From Trueperaceae bacterium (GTDB taxonomy: Bacteria; Deinococcota; Deinococci; Deinococcales; Trueperaceae), in contig REEJ01000171.1 in assembly GCA_007695125.1 (NCBI GenBank), positions 1-49,175 on the forward strand: a DNA stretch of 49,175 bases, given 5' to 3'. Positions 35,805 to 47,482 of this stretch are shown piece by piece. A program made the translations under genes and the position numbers. A model generated the notes under the pieces. That model was not told the origin of the DNA, did not search any database, and saw only the letters and a list, made by a program, of their open reading frames with translations. How positions within the stretch are numbered: the stretch's first letter is position 1; every line of letters starts with the position of its first letter.

Positions 35805-36233
35805 TCATCGGTCGCTGGCGCGATCGTAGCGCATGCGCGCGAGCAGGTGCCCGACCAGACCCGTCGGCCCCAGCATCAGTGTGAGGAGCAGCAGCGGCGA
35901 ACTCAACCAGGGCGGCATGTTGCGCGAGCGGGCGTCGAGGTAGATCCAGCGGCCGACGAACAGGTCGAAGGCCAGGAAGTGCACCCATGCGACGGTGGCG
36001 CCGGCCGGCATGGCGAGGAGCGCCGCGATCGTCTCGAGTTCGGGCGAGGCCACCGCCGCGAGCACGCCCGGCAGGTCTGGAACGACCAGGACCAGGTAGA
36101 GCAGCGCTGCAGGGGCGGCGATCCAGGCGGAGCCGGCCACGCGCCGCGTGACGCGCCAGCCTGGGGCGAGGATCATCAACAGCCAGAACGGCGCGACGAG
36201 CACGAAACTGGCTTGGAAGACCGTCGCCATCAC
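35805..36233 (-). CDS. ABA4-like (DUF4281) membrane protein
   Basis: WLLMILAPGWRVTRRV...VAWVHFLAFDLFVGRWIYLDARSRNMPPWLSSPLLLLTLMLGPTGLVGHLL. Confidence 0.85.
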   Translation of the reverse strand: MMATVFQASFVLVAPFWLLMILAPGWRVTRRVAGSAWIAAPAALLYLVLVVPDLPGVLAAVASPELETIAALLAMPAGATVAWVHFLAFDLFVGRWIYLDARSRNMPPWLSSPLLLLTLMLGPTGLVGHLLARMRYDRASDR

Positions 36234-37222
36234 ACCTCACCTGCTCGCGTCACGACCGAGCGCTGCTCCGCCGGTCGCCCCCGCACGACGAGCAGCGCAG
36301 CCACGCCGCAGGCGGCGACGAGCAGGGTGAGCGCGCCGAGCGTGAGCGTGTCGGGGCTGAGGAGCGGTTGCGCCCGCAAGGCCTGCCAGGTCACGAGGCC
36401 CGTCAGCCCGAGGTATCCGCCGGCGGCGACGGCCACCAGCGCGACCCGCTGTCCTTCCCGCAAGCGGCGCCTCCGCTGCAGCCACACGCCGAACACGGGG
36501 ACCACCTGCAACGCATGGAGGCCGACGAAGTGCCCGACGCGCAGGTCGCCCACGTCGCTGCGCCAGCCCGTGACGGGCAGTCCCGGCCCGCCGTCGGGGG
36601 CGCCGACGCTGTGCGCACCGGCGACGGTGACGCTCTCGCCGGCCTGCCAGCCGGCGAGCTGGGTCGCCGTCGGGCTGGTCATGAGGAACGCTTGGGCCAT
36701 GCCGACGATCGTGATCGCCAGCCCGAGCCGCAGCGCCCAGCCGAGGCTGGGACGCTCGAAGCGCTGTTTGAGCAGGAGCCCGGCGACGACGACGTTGGTC
36801 ACGAGCAGCACGTTGATGGCGGCGGCCATGAGCGCCCACATCGCCGCGTCGAAGGGCGTGGCGACGTTGAAGTGGCTGGTGTTGCCGCGCAGCACCTGGG
36901 TGACGATGGCGAGCCACTCGAGCGCGAAGGTCACCACGACGACCCAACCGGCGATGCGCACGAGACGAGCGCGCCACACGGTGTGCTGCCGCACGTGCGC
37001 GAGCAGCCACAGCAGCGTGAAGGTGTAGACGGTGATCGACACGGCGAACTTGGTCGGCTTGAGCCAAGCTGGGGCGCCGCCGATGGTGCGCGGGTCGAGC
37101 ACCAGGCCGAAGAGGAAGAGCGCGAGCAGCGCGAGCGTCGCCAGTCCGGAGAAGGCGAGGGGTCGGTGGTGCTCGGCGAGGTTCCGGAAGGCGGTGACGG
37201 GGTCGAACGTGGTCGTGCGCAT
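36230..37222 (-). CDS. Multispanning membrane protein, hypothetical
   Basis: APAWLKPTKFAVSITVYTFTLLWLLAHV...VGHFVGLHALQVVPVFGVWL; RBS AAGGAGG before ATG 37222; overlaps the ABA4-like gene. Confidence 0.8.
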   Translation of the reverse strand: MRTTTFDPVTAFRNLAEHHRPLAFSGLATLALLALFLFGLVLDPRTIGGAPAWLKPTKFAVSITVYTFTLLWLLAHVRQHTVWRARLVRIAGWVVVVTFALEWLAIVTQVLRGNTSHFNVATPFDAAMWALMAAAINVLLVTNVVVAGLLLKQRFERPSLGWALRLGLAITIVGMAQAFLMTSPTATQLAGWQAGESVTVAGAHSVGAPDGGPGLPVTGWRSDVGDLRVGHFVGLHALQVVPVFGVWLQRRRRLREGQRVALVAVAAGGYLGLTGLVTWQALRAQPLLSPDTLTLGALTLLVAACGVAALLVVRGRPAEQRSVVTRAGEV

Positions 37223-37234
37223 CGTTCCTCCTTG

Positions 37235-37247
37235 TGAACGGTGTTCA
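37235..37247. promoter_or_regulatory. TetR operator, site 2
   Basis: TGAACGGTGTTCA upstream of the membrane protein/ABA4-like operon. Confidence 0.8.
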
Positions 37248-37289: not shown

Positions 37290-37934
37290 TCAGGTCCGGA
37301 TGTAGAAGCCGTCGCGCAACACGCGCGCGGTTCGCTCGTAGAAGGCGCGGGCGGCGTCGGCATCGATGCCTGGCACGCTCAGGTGCAGCCCGACGATGCC
37401 ATGCACGGTGGTCCACAGCCAGGCGGCGACCTCGCGGCTCGACTGCTCGGGCAACGCGCCCATGGCCATCGCCGCCTCGACCGACTCGATCAGCACGTCG
37501 AACCCGTCGATGATCGGTGGTCCGCCGGGCGTGGCACGCAGCAACATGTCGCCGCGGCGCAGGAACATCAGCCGGTACTCGACCGGGTGCGCCAGCCCGA
37601 ACTCGACGTAGGCACGACCGATCGCCTCGATGCGATCGACCGGGTGGACCGCTCCCGCAGCCGCCTCGGCGAGGCGAGCACCGAACGTGGCGCAGCCCGC
37701 CTGGGCGGCGTGGAAGAGCAGGTCGTCCTTGTCGGCGAAGTGCAGGTACACGGTCGGCGGCGCGTAGCCTGCGGCCTCGGCCACCTGGCGCAGCGAGAAA
37801 CCGTCGACGTCGTGCTCCGCGAGCAGCGCGACGGCCGCGGCCAGCAGGTCGCCGCGGGTGTCGGGGCCGCGCACGGAGCGCCGGTCGGGACGAGACGTTC
37901 GCTTGCCCGCATCGGATCGTGGGGTCACGCGCAT
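37290..37934 (-). CDS. TetR/AcrR family transcriptional regulator
   Basis: RGDLLAAAVALLAEHDVDGFSLRQVAEAAGYAPPTVYLHFADKDDLLFHA; start may be the leaderless GTG 37928. Confidence 0.95.
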   Translation of the reverse strand: MRVTPRSDAGKRTSRPDRRSVRGPDTRGDLLAAAVALLAEHDVDGFSLRQVAEAAGYAPPTVYLHFADKDDLLFHAAQAGCATFGARLAEAAAGAVHPVDRIEAIGRAYVEFGLAHPVEYRLMFLRRGDMLLRATPGGPPIIDGFDVLIESVEAAMAMGALPEQSSREVAAWLWTTVHGIVGLHLSVPGIDADAARAFYERTARVLRDGFYIRT

Positions 37935-37963
37935 ACGATAATGAACACTGTTCACTTCGTCAA
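37935..37963 (-). promoter_or_regulatory. tetR promoter with operator in the -35/-10 spacer
   Basis: Minus strand TTGACG (37958-37963), 17 bp containing TGAACAGTGTTCA (37942-37954), TATCGT (37935-37940). Confidence 0.85.
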
Positions 37964-38279: not shown

Positions 38280-39965
38280 TCAGTCGCGCACGACGGCCTC
38301 CCCCACGTCCTCGAACACGTTCTCGCCCACCGCGACGCTCGCATCGCGTGCGATCTCGAGACCGACGGAACTGCCGCGCACCGTGTTGCCGCCGAAGCTA
38401 CCGCTTGCCGCCTCGTCGAACCACGCCGCGCGGTTGGCGTTGCCTTCGAACAGGTTGTCGGTCACCTCGGCCACGGCCTCACCCGCGATGACCACGCCAG
38501 CCCAACCGTTGTCGTCGAAGGTAGAACCGCTCACCTCGCCCGTCGCCGCGTCCAGGAACCCCACGCCGCTGCGTTCCTGAGCGAGTACCACCACGCCGTG
38601 CACTTGGAGCGTGCTGAACTCCGCCGCGACGAGGCCAGAACGGTTGCCGCGCACGGTCGTACCGTCGACGCTCGCCCGAGCCGACCCCAGCAGGTACAAC
38701 CCGAAGCCGCCGTGGTGCTCGATCCGACCGCCTCGAACCTCGATGACCGCGAACCCATCGGCCAGCAGCGCGTCGCCGTCGCCACCGTCGCCGATCATGA
38801 CGACATCGTCGAGCTCGGCGCTGGCCGCGTCGCCGACGTACAGGCCCCCCTCGTTCGCGGTGAACGTGCCCCCGACCACACGCACCGTGGCGCGCTCGAC
38901 TGCGTAGACGTGCGCCCACGTGCCCGTGCGCTCGATCGTCACACCCTCGAGGAGCACGCTCGCCGCGCCGACCACGTCGACCGCGCCGCCGGCGTGGTCA
39001 CGAAGGTGATCCCCGTGGAGCGCCAGGGCGGCGCCGTCGCCCACCCACACCGCGGAGACCAGCACCTCGTCCGTGTTGGCGCCGTTGTGCTCGAAGAGGC
39101 CGCCGTACGAGCGCACCGAGGCACGATCGTGCAGCGAGAGGGCGAAGCGCGGGTTGTGCGCGAAGACGACCCGGCGGAACTCGGCCTCGGCGTCGCCGCC
39201 GACGCGAACAGCATCGACGTCGAGGCCGCCGAGGCTGCCGCTCTCCTCGATGTACGTTGCCTCGAGGCTCACGCTGGCGCGTCCTCGGACCTCGAGTGCG
39301 CTCGCGACGTGCTGGCGCAACTCGCCACCGACCATCGTCAGGCTCGCCTCGCCGTCGATGTGAATCCCACCAACGTTCCTCACCACCACGACGTCGTCCA
39401 GATGCACGGTCGAGGCATCGCGCACCTCGATCGCGAACCCCTCGTGGCGACCGAAGCCACCACCGACCACGCGGACGTCGGCCGCACCCGACGCCACCAG
39501 GCCGCTGCCGTGACCGAACGGTCGCTCGGCCGAGTCGGCGTAGCCCCCGACCGCGAAGCCGACGTCGACGTGTTCGAGCGTCATCGCCGCGTCCCGGATC
39601 CACAGCACGTCGCCTGGCGCCTCGGCGTCGTACGCCAGACGGAGGCCTGTGATCCGCACCTCGGCACCCGGTTCGATCGACACGCCGAGGGGCGCGGAGC
39701 GCAGGTTCAACTGCACGGTGCCGGCCTCCTCGGCACGCAGGTCGACCTGGCCGCGCAGGACCAGGGTGTCGTCCAGGTCGTACTCGCCAGGCGCGATCGT
39801 CACGACACCGCCGTGGTCGAGTGCCTGCAGCAATGCCGCAGCGCTGTCGACGGTGACCGTCGCTCCGGGCTGAGCGAGCGAGGCGCCCGCGATCAGGAGC
39901 GCGAGCAGCAACGGACCCAAGCCGAGGGCGCCGACCCGACGACGCCGCGCCCACCAGGCGACCAT
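38280..39965 (-). CDS. Secreted right-handed parallel beta-helix protein
   Basis: Signal peptide LGPLLLALLIAGASLAQ; repetitive beta-helix repeats (e.g. VSGSTFDDNGWAGVVIAGEAVAEVTDNLFEGN). Confidence 0.88.
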   Translation of the reverse strand: MVAWWARRRRVGALGLGPLLLALLIAGASLAQPGATVTVDSAAALLQALDHGGVVTIAPGEYDLDDTLVLRGQVDLRAEEAGTVQLNLRSAPLGVSIEPGAEVRITGLRLAYDAEAPGDVLWIRDAAMTLEHVDVGFAVGGYADSAERPFGHGSGLVASGAADVRVVGGGFGRHEGFAIEVRDASTVHLDDVVVVRNVGGIHIDGEASLTMVGGELRQHVASALEVRGRASVSLEATYIEESGSLGGLDVDAVRVGGDAEAEFRRVVFAHNPRFALSLHDRASVRSYGGLFEHNGANTDEVLVSAVWVGDGAALALHGDHLRDHAGGAVDVVGAASVLLEGVTIERTGTWAHVYAVERATVRVVGGTFTANEGGLYVGDAASAELDDVVMIGDGGDGDALLADGFAVIEVRGGRIEHHGGFGLYLLGSARASVDGTTVRGNRSGLVAAEFSTLQVHGVVVLAQERSGVGFLDAATGEVSGSTFDDNGWAGVVIAGEAVAEVTDNLFEGNANRAAWFDEAASGSFGGNTVRGSSVGLEIARDASVAVGENVFEDVGEAVVRD

Positions 39966-41617
39966 CAGCGCGCCTCCGTGACGTTCTGGCCGTTGTCGGA
40001 GAACACGTTGTCCACGCCCTGGGCCGCACCCTGGTCCTCCAGGCGCACACCGGACTCGGAGCCCGCGATCGTGTTCCCCTCCAACGTTCCGGTGGCGGCG
40101 TCGACGATCAGCACGCCGACCTGACCGTTGCCGAGAAGCCGGTTGTCCTCGAGGTGCCCGCCCGACTCGTCCGCCAAGGCCACCCCGTTGCGTCCGTTGC
40201 CCGTGATCTCGTTGCGCATGAACACGGCGCGGGTGCCACCCAGGAGCACGGCGCCGGAGTGCAGGTTGTCGAAGACCCGGTTCTCCGTGACGAAGGCGGT
40301 GGCGGCACCGGTCATCCACAGCCCCATCTCGTTGCCCGTGATGGTGTTGTCGGTCAGGTCGGCGCTCGCGTCGCCGTCGATCCACACGCCCCTCGCCACG
40401 TGACCGGCGATGGTGTTGCCGACGATGTCGACGCTGGCCGCCTCGCCGATGGTCACGCCCGACGACGCGCCGTCGAGCAGCTCGGAGCCGTGGATGGCCG
40501 CCCGGGCGTCGCCGTGGACGAACACCGACCCCTCGTTGCCGAGGAAGCGGCTGCCCTGGATCACCAAGGTGCCCTGATCGCTGACCCGGGTGTGGCCGAA
40601 CGCCCCGTTCGCCGCGACGGTCGAGTCCTCGATCACCAGCGTGCCCGCCTGCCGCACTTCGAACGCCCCGCCGAGACTGCCGCGCACCGTGGCACGTTGC
40701 ACGGCCACGCGCGCCTCGTCCATGACGACCACGGCTGCCCAGCGCCGGCTCCCGTCCTCGAGCCCGTCACCGTTGGCCTCGAGCAACGTACCGTCGATGA
40801 CCACCTCGGCGGTGCCGCTGGCGGCGATGGCGGACACCGGCGAGTCGCGCACGATCCCGCCCCGGAAGGTCGCTCGCGCCTGGTCCACCACCCGGATGGC
40901 TTCGAGCCACATCCCGCGCTCGACGTCGAGGACGCCGTTGCCTCCGAAGCCGCTATCCGTGAGCGTCGCCTGCGCGTCGTCCAGGAGGACGATCGCCTGC
41001 GCGAACTGGTCGAGGAAGGTGCTGCCACGGACGTCGATCCGAGCCTCCTGGACCGCGATGATCCCGCGGTGGTTGTCACCCACCTGCGACGTGGCGAGGC
41101 GCAGCGCACTCGTCCCGAGCACCTCGATCGCCGCGTTCTCGTTTCGGATGATCCGCGTGTCCTCGACGTCGGCCTCGGCCCTGCCCTGCAGCACGAGGGC
41201 CGTGCCGTGCCCGGCCGGGCGCCACGGATCCGCTGGCTCGACGGTGCCCGCCTTGGCGAGCCCGAGGTCGACGCCGCGCAGCACGACGTGGCCGTTACGC
41301 ACCACCACGAGGTCACCGGCCGAGTCGCCGGCCCACACGAGGCGCAGCCCCTCCAGATGCAGCCGGGCTCCTTCACCGACGCGGACGGCGATCGGGCCGC
41401 CGGACGCCTCGATGGTCACGTCGTCGGGGCCGCTCCCGACGATCGACAGCGCGCCGGCGACGTCGAGCGAACCGTCGAGCGCGTACGTGCCAGGCGCGAT
41501 TCGGTACTCGCCGCCGCTCGCGAAGGCGGCCACCAGGTCGTCGACGCTCTCGATCGCCGTCTGGGCGAAGGCGGCGCACAGGAGCAGCGCCAGCACCAGG
41601 GTGCCGAGGCGCCTCAC
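39965..41617 (-). CDS. Secreted right-handed parallel beta-helix protein (paralogue)
   Basis: GTG start overlaps the upstream stop; repeats such as NTITGNEMGLWMTGAATAFVTENRVFDNLHSGAVLLGGTRAVFMRNEITGNGRNGVAL. Confidence 0.88.
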   Translation of the reverse strand: MRRLGTLVLALLLCAAFAQTAIESVDDLVAAFASGGEYRIAPGTYALDGSLDVAGALSIVGSGPDDVTIEASGGPIAVRVGEGARLHLEGLRLVWAGDSAGDLVVVRNGHVVLRGVDLGLAKAGTVEPADPWRPAGHGTALVLQGRAEADVEDTRIIRNENAAIEVLGTSALRLATSQVGDNHRGIIAVQEARIDVRGSTFLDQFAQAIVLLDDAQATLTDSGFGGNGVLDVERGMWLEAIRVVDQARATFRGGIVRDSPVSAIAASGTAEVVIDGTLLEANGDGLEDGSRRWAAVVVMDEARVAVQRATVRGSLGGAFEVRQAGTLVIEDSTVAANGAFGHTRVSDQGTLVIQGSRFLGNEGSVFVHGDARAAIHGSELLDGASSGVTIGEAASVDIVGNTIAGHVARGVWIDGDASADLTDNTITGNEMGLWMTGAATAFVTENRVFDNLHSGAVLLGGTRAVFMRNEITGNGRNGVALADESGGHLEDNRLLGNGQVGVLIVDAATGTLEGNTIAGSESGVRLEDQGAAQGVDNVFSDNGQNVTEAR

Positions 41618-42930
41618 GGCGCCACGGGCCCGTAGGTGCCGTCGAAGCCGATCGCGACCGCGAAAGCGTCGGCGAGCGACATACGCGGGAGCCACACGTC
41701 GGAGTCGACGTCGAGGTCGGTGCCCTGCAGGTTCCAGCCGAAGAAGCCGCGAACGGTGTTGGCCCACGACTCGACGACTTCGACCTCGGCCTCCGCGGCG
41801 TTGCGGTCGATCAGCGTACGCGCGCCGTAGAGCGCGCCCCACGCCGGGCTGATGGCGTACTCGAGATCGAAGCGGGTGTTGCCCCAAGCGTCGTACACCT
41901 CGAGCGCCCAGTCGGCGATGTTGTCCAGGTCGATGATCGTGTCGAACTCTTGGTAGTCGCCCTGCGCGTTGGCCACGAAGACGTTATCGAGCAGCACCAG
42001 GTCGCTCGCCCGGCGGGCGTTGTCGATCCCGAAGGCGTCGTTGAAGGCGAGGATGTTGTTGGCGACCTCGACCGTGATGCGTCCCTCGAGCAGGATCGCC
42101 GAGCCGCCGAAGCTGCCGAAGGGGCTGTGCTTCTGCGTGAAGAGCGCGGCGTTGTGCGCGAAGCGGTAGCGCGGGAAGTCGTTCGGGTCGTCGGCCGCGA
42201 TGGCGGTGGCGAGGTGGAAGCCGGCGCCGGTGTTGTTGACCGCGACGGAGTGCTCGATGGTCACGTCGGCCGCGGCGCCAGGGTAGAAGGCGAACGCGCC
42301 CTGCGTGGGGGCGGTGTTGGTGACGATCACATGCCGCACGACGATGGTGCTGTCGACGCCGGTGCGGATCACGAGGCCCCCCGACTCCGGGGTCGGCGTG
42401 TGCTGCGGCGTGCCCTGGCGGATGATCCGGCTCCCCTCGTCGTCGGGGTAGTAGTTGCGCGGACCGTGGTCGATGACCACGCCGTCGACGACCACCGTGT
42501 GCACGGTGTCCTCGCCGCGCGCCTGCATGAGCCTGGTCGCGAACCCACTCGTATCGATCATGAGACGCGGGTCGGTGGTGAAGTTCTGGGCGTTGTGCAC
42601 ACCGGTGAGCACCGTCACGTGCGCGCCCCACGGATCGCGGCTGGCGAAGTCGGGGGCGAAGCCGCCGTAGATCTCCACCGGGACGGTGATGTGATCGGCG
42701 CCGTTGTCGGCGCGCCCAGTGAAGGTGCCGCCGGTGATGCACACCACGTCGCCGGGCTCGAGGTCGGTGACGATGTTGCCGAGGTCGCGCGCCGGGCGCT
42801 CGAGGCTGGCGACGCGGCCACTCCCCTGCTCGCTCACGTACTTCGTGCAGGCTTGCGCCAGCGCGGGTGCGCCGGCGAGCAGCAGCGTCGCGAGCGCGAG
42901 TGCGAGGCGGCGGACGGTGGGGTGGTGCAT
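41614..42930 (-). CDS. Secreted parallel beta-helix-like protein
   Basis: Signal peptide LALALATLLLAGAPALAQA; NIVTDLEPGDVVCITGGTFTG, IYGGFAPDFASRDPWG, VAVNNTGAGFHLATA. Confidence 0.85.
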   Translation of the reverse strand: MHHPTVRRLALALATLLLAGAPALAQACTKYVSEQGSGRVASLERPARDLGNIVTDLEPGDVVCITGGTFTGRADNGADHITVPVEIYGGFAPDFASRDPWGAHVTVLTGVHNAQNFTTDPRLMIDTSGFATRLMQARGEDTVHTVVVDGVVIDHGPRNYYPDDEGSRIIRQGTPQHTPTPESGGLVIRTGVDSTIVVRHVIVTNTAPTQGAFAFYPGAAADVTIEHSVAVNNTGAGFHLATAIAADDPNDFPRYRFAHNAALFTQKHSPFGSFGGSAILLEGRITVEVANNILAFNDAFGIDNARRASDLVLLDNVFVANAQGDYQEFDTIIDLDNIADWALEVYDAWGNTRFDLEYAISPAWGALYGARTLIDRNAAEAEVEVVESWANTVRGFFGWNLQGTDLDVDSDVWLPRMSLADAFAVAIGFDGTYGPVAP

Positions 42931-42969
42931 GGTCTCCTCTTCCCGCCCCGAGGGTGGGGCTCGGCCGGG

Positions 42970-43155
42970 TCAGGAGCGGGTGTCGTCGCACGCCGCGTCG
43001 GCGTGCACCGCCTCGTCGACGAACGCCCAGGCGGCCACCCACGTCTCGAACTCGAGCACCTCGCGCGTGCGCAGGTCCTGCACGTGCACGCGCTGGGTAC
43101 CGTTCGACTGGGTGAACCGGATCAGGTAGCTGCCGACGAGCCGCTCCTTGGCCAT
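42970..43155 (-). CDS. 61-aa small protein, hypothetical
   Basis: MAKERLVGSYLIRFTQSNGTQRVHVQDLRTREVLEFETWVAAWAFVDEAVHADAACDDTRS; precisely positioned behind a predicted leaderless promoter. Confidence 0.7.
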   Translation of the reverse strand: MAKERLVGSYLIRFTQSNGTQRVHVQDLRTREVLEFETWVAAWAFVDEAVHADAACDDTRS

Positions 43156-43162
43156 GCGGGAC

Positions 43163-43205
43163 AGGCTAGGAGGGTGCCGTTTCAGTGCCGTTTCGGTGCC
43201 GCGGC
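43163..43205 (-). promoter_or_regulatory. SARP-type promoter (heptamer repeats plus -10) for the 61-aa gene
   Basis: Minus strand: GCCGCGG-CACC-GAAACGG-CACT-GAAACGG-CACCCTCC-TAGCCT-GTCCCGC-ATG; 11-bp period, 8-bp gap to -10. Confidence 0.75.
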
Positions 43206-43230
43206 GACCGCAAGGGACGGCGTGTCGAGG

Positions 43231-46185
43231 TCAGCTCGCGAGCAGGAGACGCTCGACGACGGGCGCGAGGCGCTCGGGATCCGCCGGCGGTTCGTGATCG
43301 GCGTCGGGCCGCAGTGCCGCGGCCCGGTCGCGCAGGCTCGGGGGCGTGACCGGGTGACGCAGTACGGCATCGAGCACGGCGGTCGCCAGCTCGCACCGAC
43401 CGGTGGCATCGAGCGCGCCGGCGTACGCCACCAGCACCTGGAGGAGCCGCGGCAGCGCGGCAGCGTCACGGGCGATGCGCAGCGCGGGGAGGTAGTGCGC
43501 GTCTGCGCGCTCGGGAACTCCGCGGCGGACCTGCAGGTCGCCGAGGTTCTTGAGCGTGACGATCTGGCCGAGCGTGTCTCCGACCGCCTCCTTGATGGCC
43601 AGACTCTCGCGGCCCATCGCCTCCGCCTCGTCGAGGCGTCCGAGGGTGCCGTAGAGCACCAGCAGGTTGTTCTTCACCGACGAGACGCCGCGCGGGTAGG
43701 CCAGACGCCCGTACACCTCGAGGCTCCGTTCGTAGCGGCGCGCCGCCTCCTGCGCGTCGCCGCGCGCGTCGGCGATGTAGCCGAGGTTGTTCAGCGCGGT
43801 GGCGCGCGACAGCTCGTCGCCGACCCGCTCGAAGAGCGTCACGCAGCGGAGGAAGCGCGCCTCCGCCGCATCGAACCGCTCTTGCATCGCCTCCATGCTG
43901 CCGAGCGAGTTGAGCACGTTGGCGAGCTCGGCCTCGTCGCCACTCGCCTCGAACGCGGCGACGGCGCGCTCGTAGACCGCGTCCGCCTCGTCGAACGCTC
44001 CTTGTAGCTGCAGCACGTCGCCGAGACAGCGCTGGGCGCGCCCGGCCAACGTGTCGTCGCCGATCCTCCCAGCACGCTCCGCAGCTGACGCTGCGAAGCC
44101 GCGGGCCTCGGCGAGCTCGCCACGCTCCCGGGCGGTCGTCGCGGCCGCCACCTCCACCGTGGTGGCGAGCGCCTGCGCGAACCTCCCGTCGACCACGCCC
44201 ACGCGCTCGAGCGATGCGCGGCACAGCTCACCACCGCGGCGGTAGTGCCCGAGCAGGTCGTAGTGGTCGAACAGCGGCTTGGCGACCTGCAGCGCACGCT
44301 CGAACGCGTGGGTGTCGAGGAGGCGCAGCCACGCGCGCTCGAGGTTGGCGAGGTCGTCGCCGAGCGCGACGAGCGCCTCGCTCGCACCGGTGGCGGGGTG
44401 CTCGGCGACGGCCGCGAGTCGCTCCGTGTAGTGCTCGGCGTGCGCGTCGAGCGCAGCGGCCTCGAGCTCGGGGTCGTCTGCCAGCGCCTCGGCCGCGTAC
44501 TGCGCAACCAGGGCGTGGCTGGCGAAGCGGTCGGGCCCGAGCCGCTGGACGAGCGACTGGTTCAGCAGGCTGAGCAGGAGCGCGCGCGGCGCCCCACTGA
44601 CCGCAGCCGCGGCCGCGAGCGTGCCGCCGCCCACGAGGACGGAGAGGCGGGCGAGCGCCGCGCGCTTGGCGGTGCTGAGGTCGGCCCAGGTCCGCTCGAG
44701 CACCGAACGCATGCTGCGGTGACGCTCGGGGACGTCCATGAGGTCGGTCTCGAGCAGGTGGTACCCGGTCTCGAGCTCGTCCGCGACGGTCGCGAGCGGC
44801 ATCGCCCGGACCCACGTCGCGGCGAGCTCCAGCGCCAAGGGGAGCCCCTGCACCGCGCTCGCGATGCGCGCAGCGGCCGCGAGCTCACCGTCGCCGACCT
44901 GCAGGCGCGGCTCGACGCGGCGCGCCGCACCGAGCAGCAGCGTGACCGCGTCGCTGCGACCGCCGGTTTCGTCGGCATCGGTCCGCAGGCCTGCGAGGTC
45001 GAGCACCACCTCACTCTGGAGCGCCAGGCGCCGGCGCGAGGTGACGACCGCCCGCGCCGCCCCGTCACCGGCGAGCCACGCCCCGAGGCGTGCGGCGTGT
45101 TCGGCGAGGGGCTCGAACTCGTCGAGGACCAGGAGCACGTCGAGCTCGGCCAGGACCTCCCGCAACCGCCGGTCGGCCGCTTCGCTGCCGCCCTCGACCT
45201 CGATGCCGAGCGCCTCGGCGACCCGCTCGAGGAGACCGTCGCCGTCACGCACGGCAGCGAGCGGTACGAAGACCGCCCCGGCGCCATGACGTGCGGCGCG
45301 GCGTCGAGCGAACTCGAGCGCCAGGCGCGTCTTGCCGATCCCACCGAGGCCGAGGATGGTGACGAGTCGCACGCCTTCGGCGTCGATCAGCGCCTCGAGC
45401 TGAGCCAGCTCCTGCGCACGGCCGACGAAGCGCGTGGCCGGCTCCGGGAGCATCGGCCGTTGCGGCTCTGGGGCCGGAGGCTGCTCGCCGACGGCAGGCT
45501 GTGGCTCCAGCGCCGCGCGGGTCGCGGCCGTCGGGGTCGTACCGACCTCGCGCTCGAGGAGGTCGCTGAACGCGTCGAAGCGGCGCTGCGCCTCGGTCGC
45601 GCGCCCAGAGCGTACGAGCGTCACCAGGAGGTGCTCCATCGCCCGCTCGTCCAGGTCGTCGATCGCCACGAGCCGTTCGAGAGCGTCGATCGCGTCCGTC
45701 CAGGCAGCCTCTGCGAGGCGCGCCTCCGCCAGGCGCTCGAGCGCCCCTCGATATCGGGACTGGAGCTCGAGCCGCTCGAGCTCGAGCCAGGTGTCGAAGG
45801 TCGGACGACCGCGCAGCGCGTACCCGGCGAGGAGCGGTCCCCGGTACGAACGCACGGCGGCGTCCAGGTCGTCCGCGGCGAGCGCAGCGCGGAACGTGGC
45901 GACGTCGTGACCGACGTCGAAGCGCACGCGGTGGGGTTCGACCTGCAGCCCAGCGGCCCACGGCAGCTGCTGCGCACGGTGCAGCTGCAGTCGGAGATAC
46001 TGCAGAGCCTGCGACTCGGCCTCGTCGGGTCGATACAGGTAGGCGAGGTCGGTGCGCGGCACCCAGCCCTCGGCGAGCGCGAGATACGCCAGGAGCGACG
46101 CGGGTGCGTTCACCGGGAGTGTGGACTCGACGCCAGCGTGCACGACCGCTGGGCTGCCGAACAGGGTGAGGCGCACGTCGGGCAC
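43231..46185 (-). CDS. SARP-type regulator: BTAD domain - NB-ARC/AAA ATPase - TPR
   Basis: VPDVRLTLFGSPAVVHAG...AIDALERLVAIDDLDERAMEHLLVTLVRSGRATEAQRRFDAFSDLLEREVGTTPTAATRAAL (BTAD); TILGLGGIGKTRLALEFARR (Walker A), VLLVLDEFE; C-terminal TPR repeats. Leaderless GTG 46185, 5 nt after TAGACT. Confidence 0.92.
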   Translation of the reverse strand: MPDVRLTLFGSPAVVHAGVESTLPVNAPASLLAYLALAEGWVPRTDLAYLYRPDEAESQALQYLRLQLHRAQQLPWAAGLQVEPHRVRFDVGHDVATFRAALAADDLDAAVRSYRGPLLAGYALRGRPTFDTWLELERLELQSRYRGALERLAEARLAEAAWTDAIDALERLVAIDDLDERAMEHLLVTLVRSGRATEAQRRFDAFSDLLEREVGTTPTAATRAALEPQPAVGEQPPAPEPQRPMLPEPATRFVGRAQELAQLEALIDAEGVRLVTILGLGGIGKTRLALEFARRRAARHGAGAVFVPLAAVRDGDGLLERVAEALGIEVEGGSEAADRRLREVLAELDVLLVLDEFEPLAEHAARLGAWLAGDGAARAVVTSRRRLALQSEVVLDLAGLRTDADETGGRSDAVTLLLGAARRVEPRLQVGDGELAAAARIASAVQGLPLALELAATWVRAMPLATVADELETGYHLLETDLMDVPERHRSMRSVLERTWADLSTAKRAALARLSVLVGGGTLAAAAAVSGAPRALLLSLLNQSLVQRLGPDRFASHALVAQYAAEALADDPELEAAALDAHAEHYTERLAAVAEHPATGASEALVALGDDLANLERAWLRLLDTHAFERALQVAKPLFDHYDLLGHYRRGGELCRASLERVGVVDGRFAQALATTVEVAAATTARERGELAEARGFAASAAERAGRIGDDTLAGRAQRCLGDVLQLQGAFDEADAVYERAVAAFEASGDEAELANVLNSLGSMEAMQERFDAAEARFLRCVTLFERVGDELSRATALNNLGYIADARGDAQEAARRYERSLEVYGRLAYPRGVSSVKNNLLVLYGTLGRLDEAEAMGRESLAIKEAVGDTLGQIVTLKNLGDLQVRRGVPERADAHYLPALRIARDAAALPRLLQVLVAYAGALDATGRCELATAVLDAVLRHPVTPPSLRDRAAALRPDADHEPPADPERLAPVVERLLLAS

Positions 46186-46263
46186 GCGGGAGTCTACCGC
46201 CGGGGCTGAGCGCGGCTGGGGCAGCGGGCACACAGGACGCTCGGCGTCGATGCCGCCGTGCGT

Positions 46264-46310
46264 GCGCTAAGCGGGCGCTAAGCCGGCGCTAAGCGGGCGC
46301 ACCATAGCCT
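46264..46310 (+). promoter_or_regulatory. SARP-type promoter with three perfect-period 11-bp direct repeats
   Basis: GCGCTAAGCGG GCGCTAAGCCG GCGCTAAGCGG GCGCACCA TAGCCT; heptamers TAAGCGG/TAAGCCG/TAAGCGG, 8 bp before TAGCCT (46305-46310). Confidence 0.85.
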
Positions 46311-46378
46311 CGCGACCGGACGGTTGGGCAGGCCACGGCCGTGGTCGGCACCTCTCCGTATCGCCGTTGGAGGCCATG

Positions 46379-47482
46379 ATGCAGACACACTCGCTCCGCT
46401 CTCGTGCCGCCCTCGCCCCGCTGATCGCGCTCGCGCTTGCGCTGTCTGCCTGCGGTGGCCCCGCGCCCGGCGGTCCGGGTGACCCGGACCCGGACCCGGA
46501 CCCGGACCCGACCGGCGTGACGCCCGCCATCCTCTTCCTCGGTGACGACTCCGGCATCCTCCAGGTCCTGCACAGCACGTCCACCGGCATCGCCGCTCGC
46601 GCCCCGCTGGTCCTGCCCGAGGACGCCGAGCCATGCGGCAGTGCCGCGCATGACGGGCGTCTCTACGTCGGCGACTACTGGAACGAGGTCATCTATGCCT
46701 ACGACCTCGAGGCCGCGATCGGCGGCGGCGTCGTGAGCCCACTCGCGACCGCTACCCCCAACGTCTCAGGGATCGTCGAGCCATGCGGTCTCGCGTTCGA
46801 CTCGAACGGCGACCTCTGGGTCGGTGACTTCTCCTCCGGCAACCGCGTCCTCACGTTCACCGATCCAGCCACGTGGAGCGGCGACGAGAGCCCGACCCCG
46901 TCGCGCATCCTGACGATGTCGTCGGCGGGCAGCTTCCAGAGCTGGGTCGACGTGGTCGACGTCGCTTTCGACGACGATGGCAACCTCTGGGTGGTCGACG
47001 AGTGGTACGAGACGATCACACGGATCGACGACCCGACCTCGCTCCCCGCCGACGCCACCAACACGGTGCCGTCGCTGCAGATCGTCGACGTCGAGGTGCC
47101 ACCGAGCGACGGCCTGAGCTACTCGCTGTACCTGCCGAACAGCGTCGCCATCGGCCCAGACGGCATGGTCTACGTCGGCAACGACTGGAGCTCGACCAAC
47201 CTGATCACACGCTACGACGACGTCGGTCTGGTCGACACGACCGGACAGGTCGAGCTCGTGCCGGGGGCCTACATCGTCGCCCCCGCTCCGTTGACGCGAT
47301 CCTTCAGCGTCGGCTTCGACCCCGATGGTCGCCTCTGGGTCGCCGACCGCGCCCGCTTGCACCGGCTCACCGGGTACACGGGCGATGGCGTGGTGAACGC
47401 CGGCAGCGGCGACTCGATCGCCCTCGCCGGCGCGACCACGTACTACGGCGGCATGACCTGGGTCGCCTGGTCCGGCGACTGA
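46379..47482 (+). CDS. Lipoprotein with NHL/SMP30-like beta-propeller repeats
   Basis: Lipobox LALSACGG; Asp-Pro linker; CGLAFDSNGDLWVGDF, VAFDDDGNLWVVDE, VAIGPDGMVYVGND, VGFDPDGRLWVADR repeats; GGAGG before ATG. Confidence 0.88.
   Translation: MQTHSLRSRAALAPLIALALALSACGGPAPGGPGDPDPDPDPDPTGVTPAILFLGDDSGILQVLHSTSTGIAARAPLVLPEDAEPCGSAAHDGRLYVGDYWNEVIYAYDLEAAIGGGVVSPLATATPNVSGIVEPCGLAFDSNGDLWVGDFSSGNRVLTFTDPATWSGDESPTPSRILTMSSAGSFQSWVDVVDVAFDDDGNLWVVDEWYETITRIDDPTSLPADATNTVPSLQIVDVEVPPSDGLSYSLYLPNSVAIGPDGMVYVGNDWSSTNLITRYDDVGLVDTTGQVELVPGAYIVAPAPLTRSFSVGFDPDGRLWVADRARLHRLTGYTGDGVVNAGSGDSIALAGATTYYGGMTWVAWSGD

Follow-up and report, generated by a model that had tools for sequence, protein, structure and literature searches.

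SARPs are familiar chiefly as activators of antibiotic gene clusters in actinomycetes. What might a large SARP control in a bacterium of the phylum Deinococcota, where its gene precedes those of a 61 aa protein (s61) and three predicted exported beta-helix proteins (bh3, bh2 and bh1)? In the literature on SARPs in Deinococcota, we found only a receiver-domain SARP of D. deserti that is induced by irradiation (PMC3564903). The locus examined here lies in a 49,175 nt stretch of DNA (the window, meaning the whole stretch analysed; contig C281) from a Trueperaceae MAG (order Deinococcales) of 3.68 Mb that is 89.9% complete and carries 18 BTAD matches.

Organization of the locus

On the minus strand the genes follow one another, 5′ to 3′, in the order SARP, s61, bh3, bh2 and bh1 (coordinates rechecked). 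The features are as follows.

43231-46176, minus strand: SARP regulator, 981 aa; winged helix and BTAD, AAA/NB-ARC (STAND) ATPase, C-terminal TPRs (Pfam)
43163-43194, minus strand: s61 promoter, GAAACGG-4-GAAACGG, 8 bp, TAGCCT; predicted SARP operator (repeat scan)
42970-43155, minus strand: s61, 61 aa, predicted beta4-alpha fold (homologs, SARP adjacency, AF2 pLDDT 88)
41614-42930, minus strand: bh3, predicted secreted right-handed beta-helix protein (homologs; AF2 beta-helix, pLDDT 73.5)
39965-41617, minus strand: bh2, predicted secreted NosD-like beta-helix protein (Pfam Beta_helix, 1.4e-36); GTG start overlaps the bh3 stop
38280-39965, minus strand: bh1, predicted secreted NosD-like beta-helix protein (Pfam Beta_helix, 5.1e-21); ATG overlaps the bh2 stop
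46268-46310, plus strand: propeller promoter with a SARP-type operator, TAAGCGG-4-TAAGCCG-4-TAAGCGG, 8 bp, TAGCCT (repeat scan)
46376-47482, plus strand: NHL-type beta-propeller lipoprotein (NHL, 1e-12), divergent from the SARP gene

An earlier note on this DNA had described a 61 aa gene followed, after about 40 bp, by three coupled beta-helix genes, and this arrangement is confirmed. The SARP and s61 genes are separated by 75 bp and s61 and bh3 by 39 bp, while bh3 and bh2 overlap by 4 bp and bh2 and bh1 by 1 bp. Separate promoters for the beta-helix genes were looked for, but neither a sigma-70-like promoter nor a T-tailed terminator was found between the genes. A conserved RNA hairpin in the s61/bh3 gap was considered and rejected, since its stability is no better than that of shuffled sequences. 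We consider it likely that the SARP is an AfsR-like activator of s61 and bh3-bh2-bh1, expressed as one transcript, and that the propeller gene is a separate target.

The regulator resembles large SARPs

The earlier description of the regulator as a STAND-type ATPase with TPRs is borne out by Pfam matches to AAA_22 (9.5e-8) and TPR_12 (1.9e-24), together with a BTAD match of 1.6e-16 (61.4 bits against a cut-off of 22.1); the NB-ARC match (2.1e-4, 21.1 bits) falls just under its cut-off of 23.5. Alternative start codons are present at 46185 and 46233. The N-terminal region can be aligned with other SARPs, and among PDB sequences AfsR is the best match (8k60, E 2.4e-11, residues 118-572). Three features of a large, AfsR-type SARP were found, namely a winged helix with BTAD, an ATPase followed by TPRs, and the expected target-promoter geometry. 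Because the protein scores 78.7 bits against the cut-off of 1430 of the AfsR equivalog model NF053617 (NCBIfam), we liken the system to AfsR-afsS and do not class the regulator itself as AfsR.

The same genome encodes a second SARP on contig C167 (L057 44-5811), accompanied by a 74 aa s61-like gene and a Big_2/beta-helix lipoprotein. The operator heptamer at that locus is TTGAGGC.

Predicted operators carry direct repeats at an 11 bp period

Published SARP operators consist of 11 bp direct repeats whose 3′ repeat lies 8 bp from the -10 element (PMC10936776). When the whole window was scanned for three heptamers spaced 11 bp apart, with 10 shuffled copies as a control, triple repeats were found at two sites only, one on each side of the SARP gene, and in none of the shuffled copies (0/10). 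In the s61 promoter, GAAACGG occupies 43194-43188 and 43183-43177 and is followed, after 8 bp, by TAGCCT (43168-43163) and by the ATG at 43155. In the propeller promoter, TAAGCGG, TAAGCCG and TAAGCGG begin at 46268, 46279 and 46290, respectively, with TAGCCT starting at 46305. Both promoters therefore match the published geometry, the last heptamer being 8 bp from TAGCCT. Because the -10 element ends 7 nt before the ATG, the s61 transcript is probably leaderless. The s61 operator-promoter occurs once in its own genome.

The repeat period is conserved among relatives. Of 37 SARP-s61 gaps searched for heptamer pairs at least 6/7 identical at periods 7 to 25, 25 have such a pair at period 11, which is perfect in 15; any other period is represented in 0-5 gaps, and the remaining 12 gaps have no clear period-11 repeat. 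Across ten loci that combine a SARP with beta-helix genes, there are 17 GNAACG pairs at period 11 and 0-3 at other periods, and a -10-like element lies mostly 9 nt downstream of GNAACG; such locus counts are not independent, because the loci are related by descent. Operator distance correlates with SARP N-terminal distance (Mantel r 0.27, p 0.0016), although shared descent may contribute to this correlation. An operator code of GNAACG at an 11 bp period, 8 bp from the -10 element, would make the regulons of such SARPs predictable.

The propeller gene probably belongs to a different regulon

The earlier note had identified the divergent gene as a propeller lipoprotein with its own SARP-type promoter, and this assignment holds, as the protein has an NHL domain and the lipobox LSAC. 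The note had also placed this gene and the beta-helix genes in one regulon. The part of that proposal that joins SARP, s61 and the beta-helix genes is supported by a gene order that Meiothermus hypogaeus keeps, as do other genera, and by GNAACG operators before the beta-helix genes of relatives. The propeller part is not, given its TAAGCGG operator and a linkage that is not conserved.

That the same SARP also activates the propeller gene through the TAAGCGG repeats, making a single regulon, is an alternative that we regard as doubtful. The two sites share their geometry and TAGCCT element, their heptamers agree at 5/7 positions (TAAGCGG versus GAAACGG) and they flank the SARP gene; moreover, one Thermaceae-like genome has a SARP-s61 pair followed by a DUF5122 beta-propeller lipoprotein. 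However, the GNAACG core is broken in TAAGCGG, where G replaces the second A. The source genome has three sites with TAAGC pairs at 11 bp spacing, and two of these, at a propeller paralog (C167:11280) and at a gene for a 163 aa protein (C323:6377), are away from the SARP. The longer TAAGC operator pattern was found in none of 38 other genomes of the family, and no propeller homolog in relatives lies beside s61, leaving them without the propeller-SARP-s61 linkage. On sequence and distribution we rejected assignment of the two operators to the same class. The propeller gene is probably in a different regulon, as a separate SARP-type target with an operator class of its own.

s61 represents a protein family that accompanies SARP genes

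Homologs of s61 were first found by its sequence alone, with gene neighbourhood not used. The profile search identified them in 40 of the 111 genomes of the phylum Deinococcota. Among 51 distinct copies, 45 adjoin a SARP gene: 36 lie immediately 3′ of it on the same strand, six immediately 5′, and three are adjacent in other arrangements. The other six lie away from any SARP.

No Pfam or NCBIfam model matches the s61 family, and Pfam membership was rejected for want of a consistent family among the matches. The structure search with the s61 model likewise gave no significant match. The order of elements in the model is that of the PC4/Sub1 ssDNA-binding cofactors, but the resemblance (TM about 0.5, Foldseek E about 0.8-1.6) is not significant and has no counterpart in a sequence match, which makes it a lead and not a finding. 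Our literature search, which left most subscription journals outside its reach, found no description of s61 or of the SARP-s61-beta-helix set. Judged by these comparisons, s61 is an undescribed protein family. Its gene forms the module's conserved core.

The gene that follows s61 is export-like in 22 of 31 cases, compared with 192 of 603 other genes (Fisher p 1.8e-5), as called on non-independent loci by a crude signal-peptide heuristic that is positive for the SARP itself too. Genes at this position include those for Big and DUF5122-propeller lipoproteins, and also for GGDEF proteins and an M28 peptidase, so that export is a tendency and not a rule. AfsR-like switches appear to be in use across the whole phylum, each paired with an undescribed protein of about 60 aa and often controlling exported repeat proteins.

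In three genomes of one genus (loci L103, L109 and L110), ORFs of 83-89 aa match the s61 profile with no SARP adjacent. Two of these ORFs lie beside a putative O-acetylhomoserine sulfhydrylase-like gene.

Beta-helix genes as predicted direct targets

The bh1 and bh2 proteins match the Pfam Beta_helix/NosD families, whereas bh3 is sub-threshold; all three, bh3 weakly, resemble the NosD and pectate-lyase-like fold family. A NosD function for bh1 and bh2 was rejected, since their scores with TIGR04247 (26.6 and 47.8 bits, respectively) are under the curated cut-off of 300; no confident enzyme match was obtained, and no nitrous-oxide reductase genes were seen beside the three genes. The bh3 model gives pectinesterase and polysaccharide-lyase fold matches, but these are weak and there is no significant PDB sequence match, and its identity as a known enzyme was rejected.

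Conservation of the gene neighbourhood, proposed earlier as a check, was found: the SARP-s61-beta-helix linkage is kept in relatives. Of the three beta-helix proteins, bh3 is the SARP's conserved partner. The order SARP-s61-bh3 recurs in two genomes, G014 and G061, the latter with bh1/bh2-type genes as well; bh2 homologs are present at loci L037 and L143 and bh1 homologs at L037 and L038. In M. hypogaeus the order is SARP, s61, a 236 aa protein, bh3, a 145 aa protein, TMEM43 and a beta-helix protein.

This M. hypogaeus locus (strain DSM 23238, L143 3523-9032) is a version from a cultured strain, with bh3, TMEM43 and a secreted 236 aa protein, and makes the idea directly testable. A gasdermin identity of the 236 aa protein was rejected because the match is under the cut-off. 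The TMEM43 profile match was obtained with the L018 protein, and the literature search on TMEM43 returned nothing relevant.

A GNAACG operator lies directly upstream of bh3 at three loci (L137, L138 and L144), before the 236 aa-bh3 unit of M. hypogaeus and before the bh1 homolog at L038; in all, four relatives have such copies at their beta-helix genes. Seen by genome, bh3 is located apart from s61 in G023 and G007, yet a copy of the operator directly precedes it; G023 has one more before a bh1 homolog, and G014 has copies at both s61 and bh3. None of seven bh3 loci outside Deinococcota has this operator. Such independent placement before beta-helix genes is the strongest evidence that these genes may be direct targets.

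These operators also bear on the proposal that s61 is an autoregulatory or inhibitory SARP-binding partner and that the beta-helix genes are passengers, gained downstream in a few genomes. The beta-helix genes do occur in a minority of genomes, and the varied genes downstream of SARP-s61 pairs, from GGDEF and peptidase M28 to Big and propeller lipoproteins, fit this explanation. Passengers, however, would have no need of operator copies of their own, and we judge the proposal unlikely.

In other phyla bh3 occurs without a SARP, as in Balneolaceae and in Hellea, where it is near a YadA-head protein, or with a TPR histidine kinase, as in Saprospiraceae, and is thus not dependent on this regulator. 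The homologs at L145-L147 (Saprospiraceae and relatives) are about 34% identical and have no SARP; at L145 the kinase is encoded two genes downstream of bh3. An accidental neighbourhood, in which a SARP gene lies beside unrelated secreted-protein genes and the repeats arose by chance, would agree with bh3 occurring without a SARP but can scarcely be credited in view of the period specificity, its conservation across many genomes and above all the GNAACG period count.

Proposed mechanism and comparison with AfsR-afsS

In the favoured model of an AfsR-like activator, the SARP would be gated by a ligand or partner and triggered through its STAND-TPR part. Its winged helix and BTAD would bind the two GAAACGG repeats 8 bp upstream of TAGCCT and recruit RNA polymerase. 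As the genes overlap and internal promoters are lacking, a single transcript would begin at the s61 ATG, or right beside it, and continue into bh3-bh2-bh1. The s61 protein would be a small cytoplasmic component, most likely acting in feedback on the SARP or as a co-regulator. From their signal peptides and fold, the exported beta-helix proteins may act on, or anchor to, extracellular material. We infer each of these steps: activation, operonic transcription, ligand gating through the TPRs, co-regulation by s61 and the extracellular role.

The closest parallel is in Streptomyces, where AfsR (993 aa) activates afsS, a gene for a 63 aa protein (PMC6988585). Both systems pair a large SARP (993 versus 981 aa) containing BTAD, an NB-ARC-type ATPase and TPRs with a tiny gene (63 versus 61 aa) directly preceded by two 11 bp direct repeats. 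In contrast, s61 has a predicted beta4-alpha fold without a family match and is likened to AfsS by gene size and layout. It is co-directional with exported beta-helix genes, whereas AfsS leads to antibiotic regulators; its promoter is probably leaderless, and the host belongs to Deinococcota. A more far-reaching possibility is that a regulatory cassette independent of AfsR-afsS is widespread in Deinococcota. Its STAND-SARP would act at a leaderless promoter to turn on s61, a small PC4-like DNA-binding cofactor that would feed back on the SARP, and on a signal from a surface or a neighbour the cassette would deploy exported beta-helix, propeller and Big-domain proteins. We hold this to be improbable.

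Adjacent palindromes

Beyond bh1, two perfect-arm palindromes are present in the window. One, TGAACGGTGTTCA at 37235-37247, lies upstream of a gene for a membrane protein (36230-37222); the other, TGAACACTGTTCA at 37942-37954, lies upstream of the TetR gene (37290-37934). Both are likely TetR operators.
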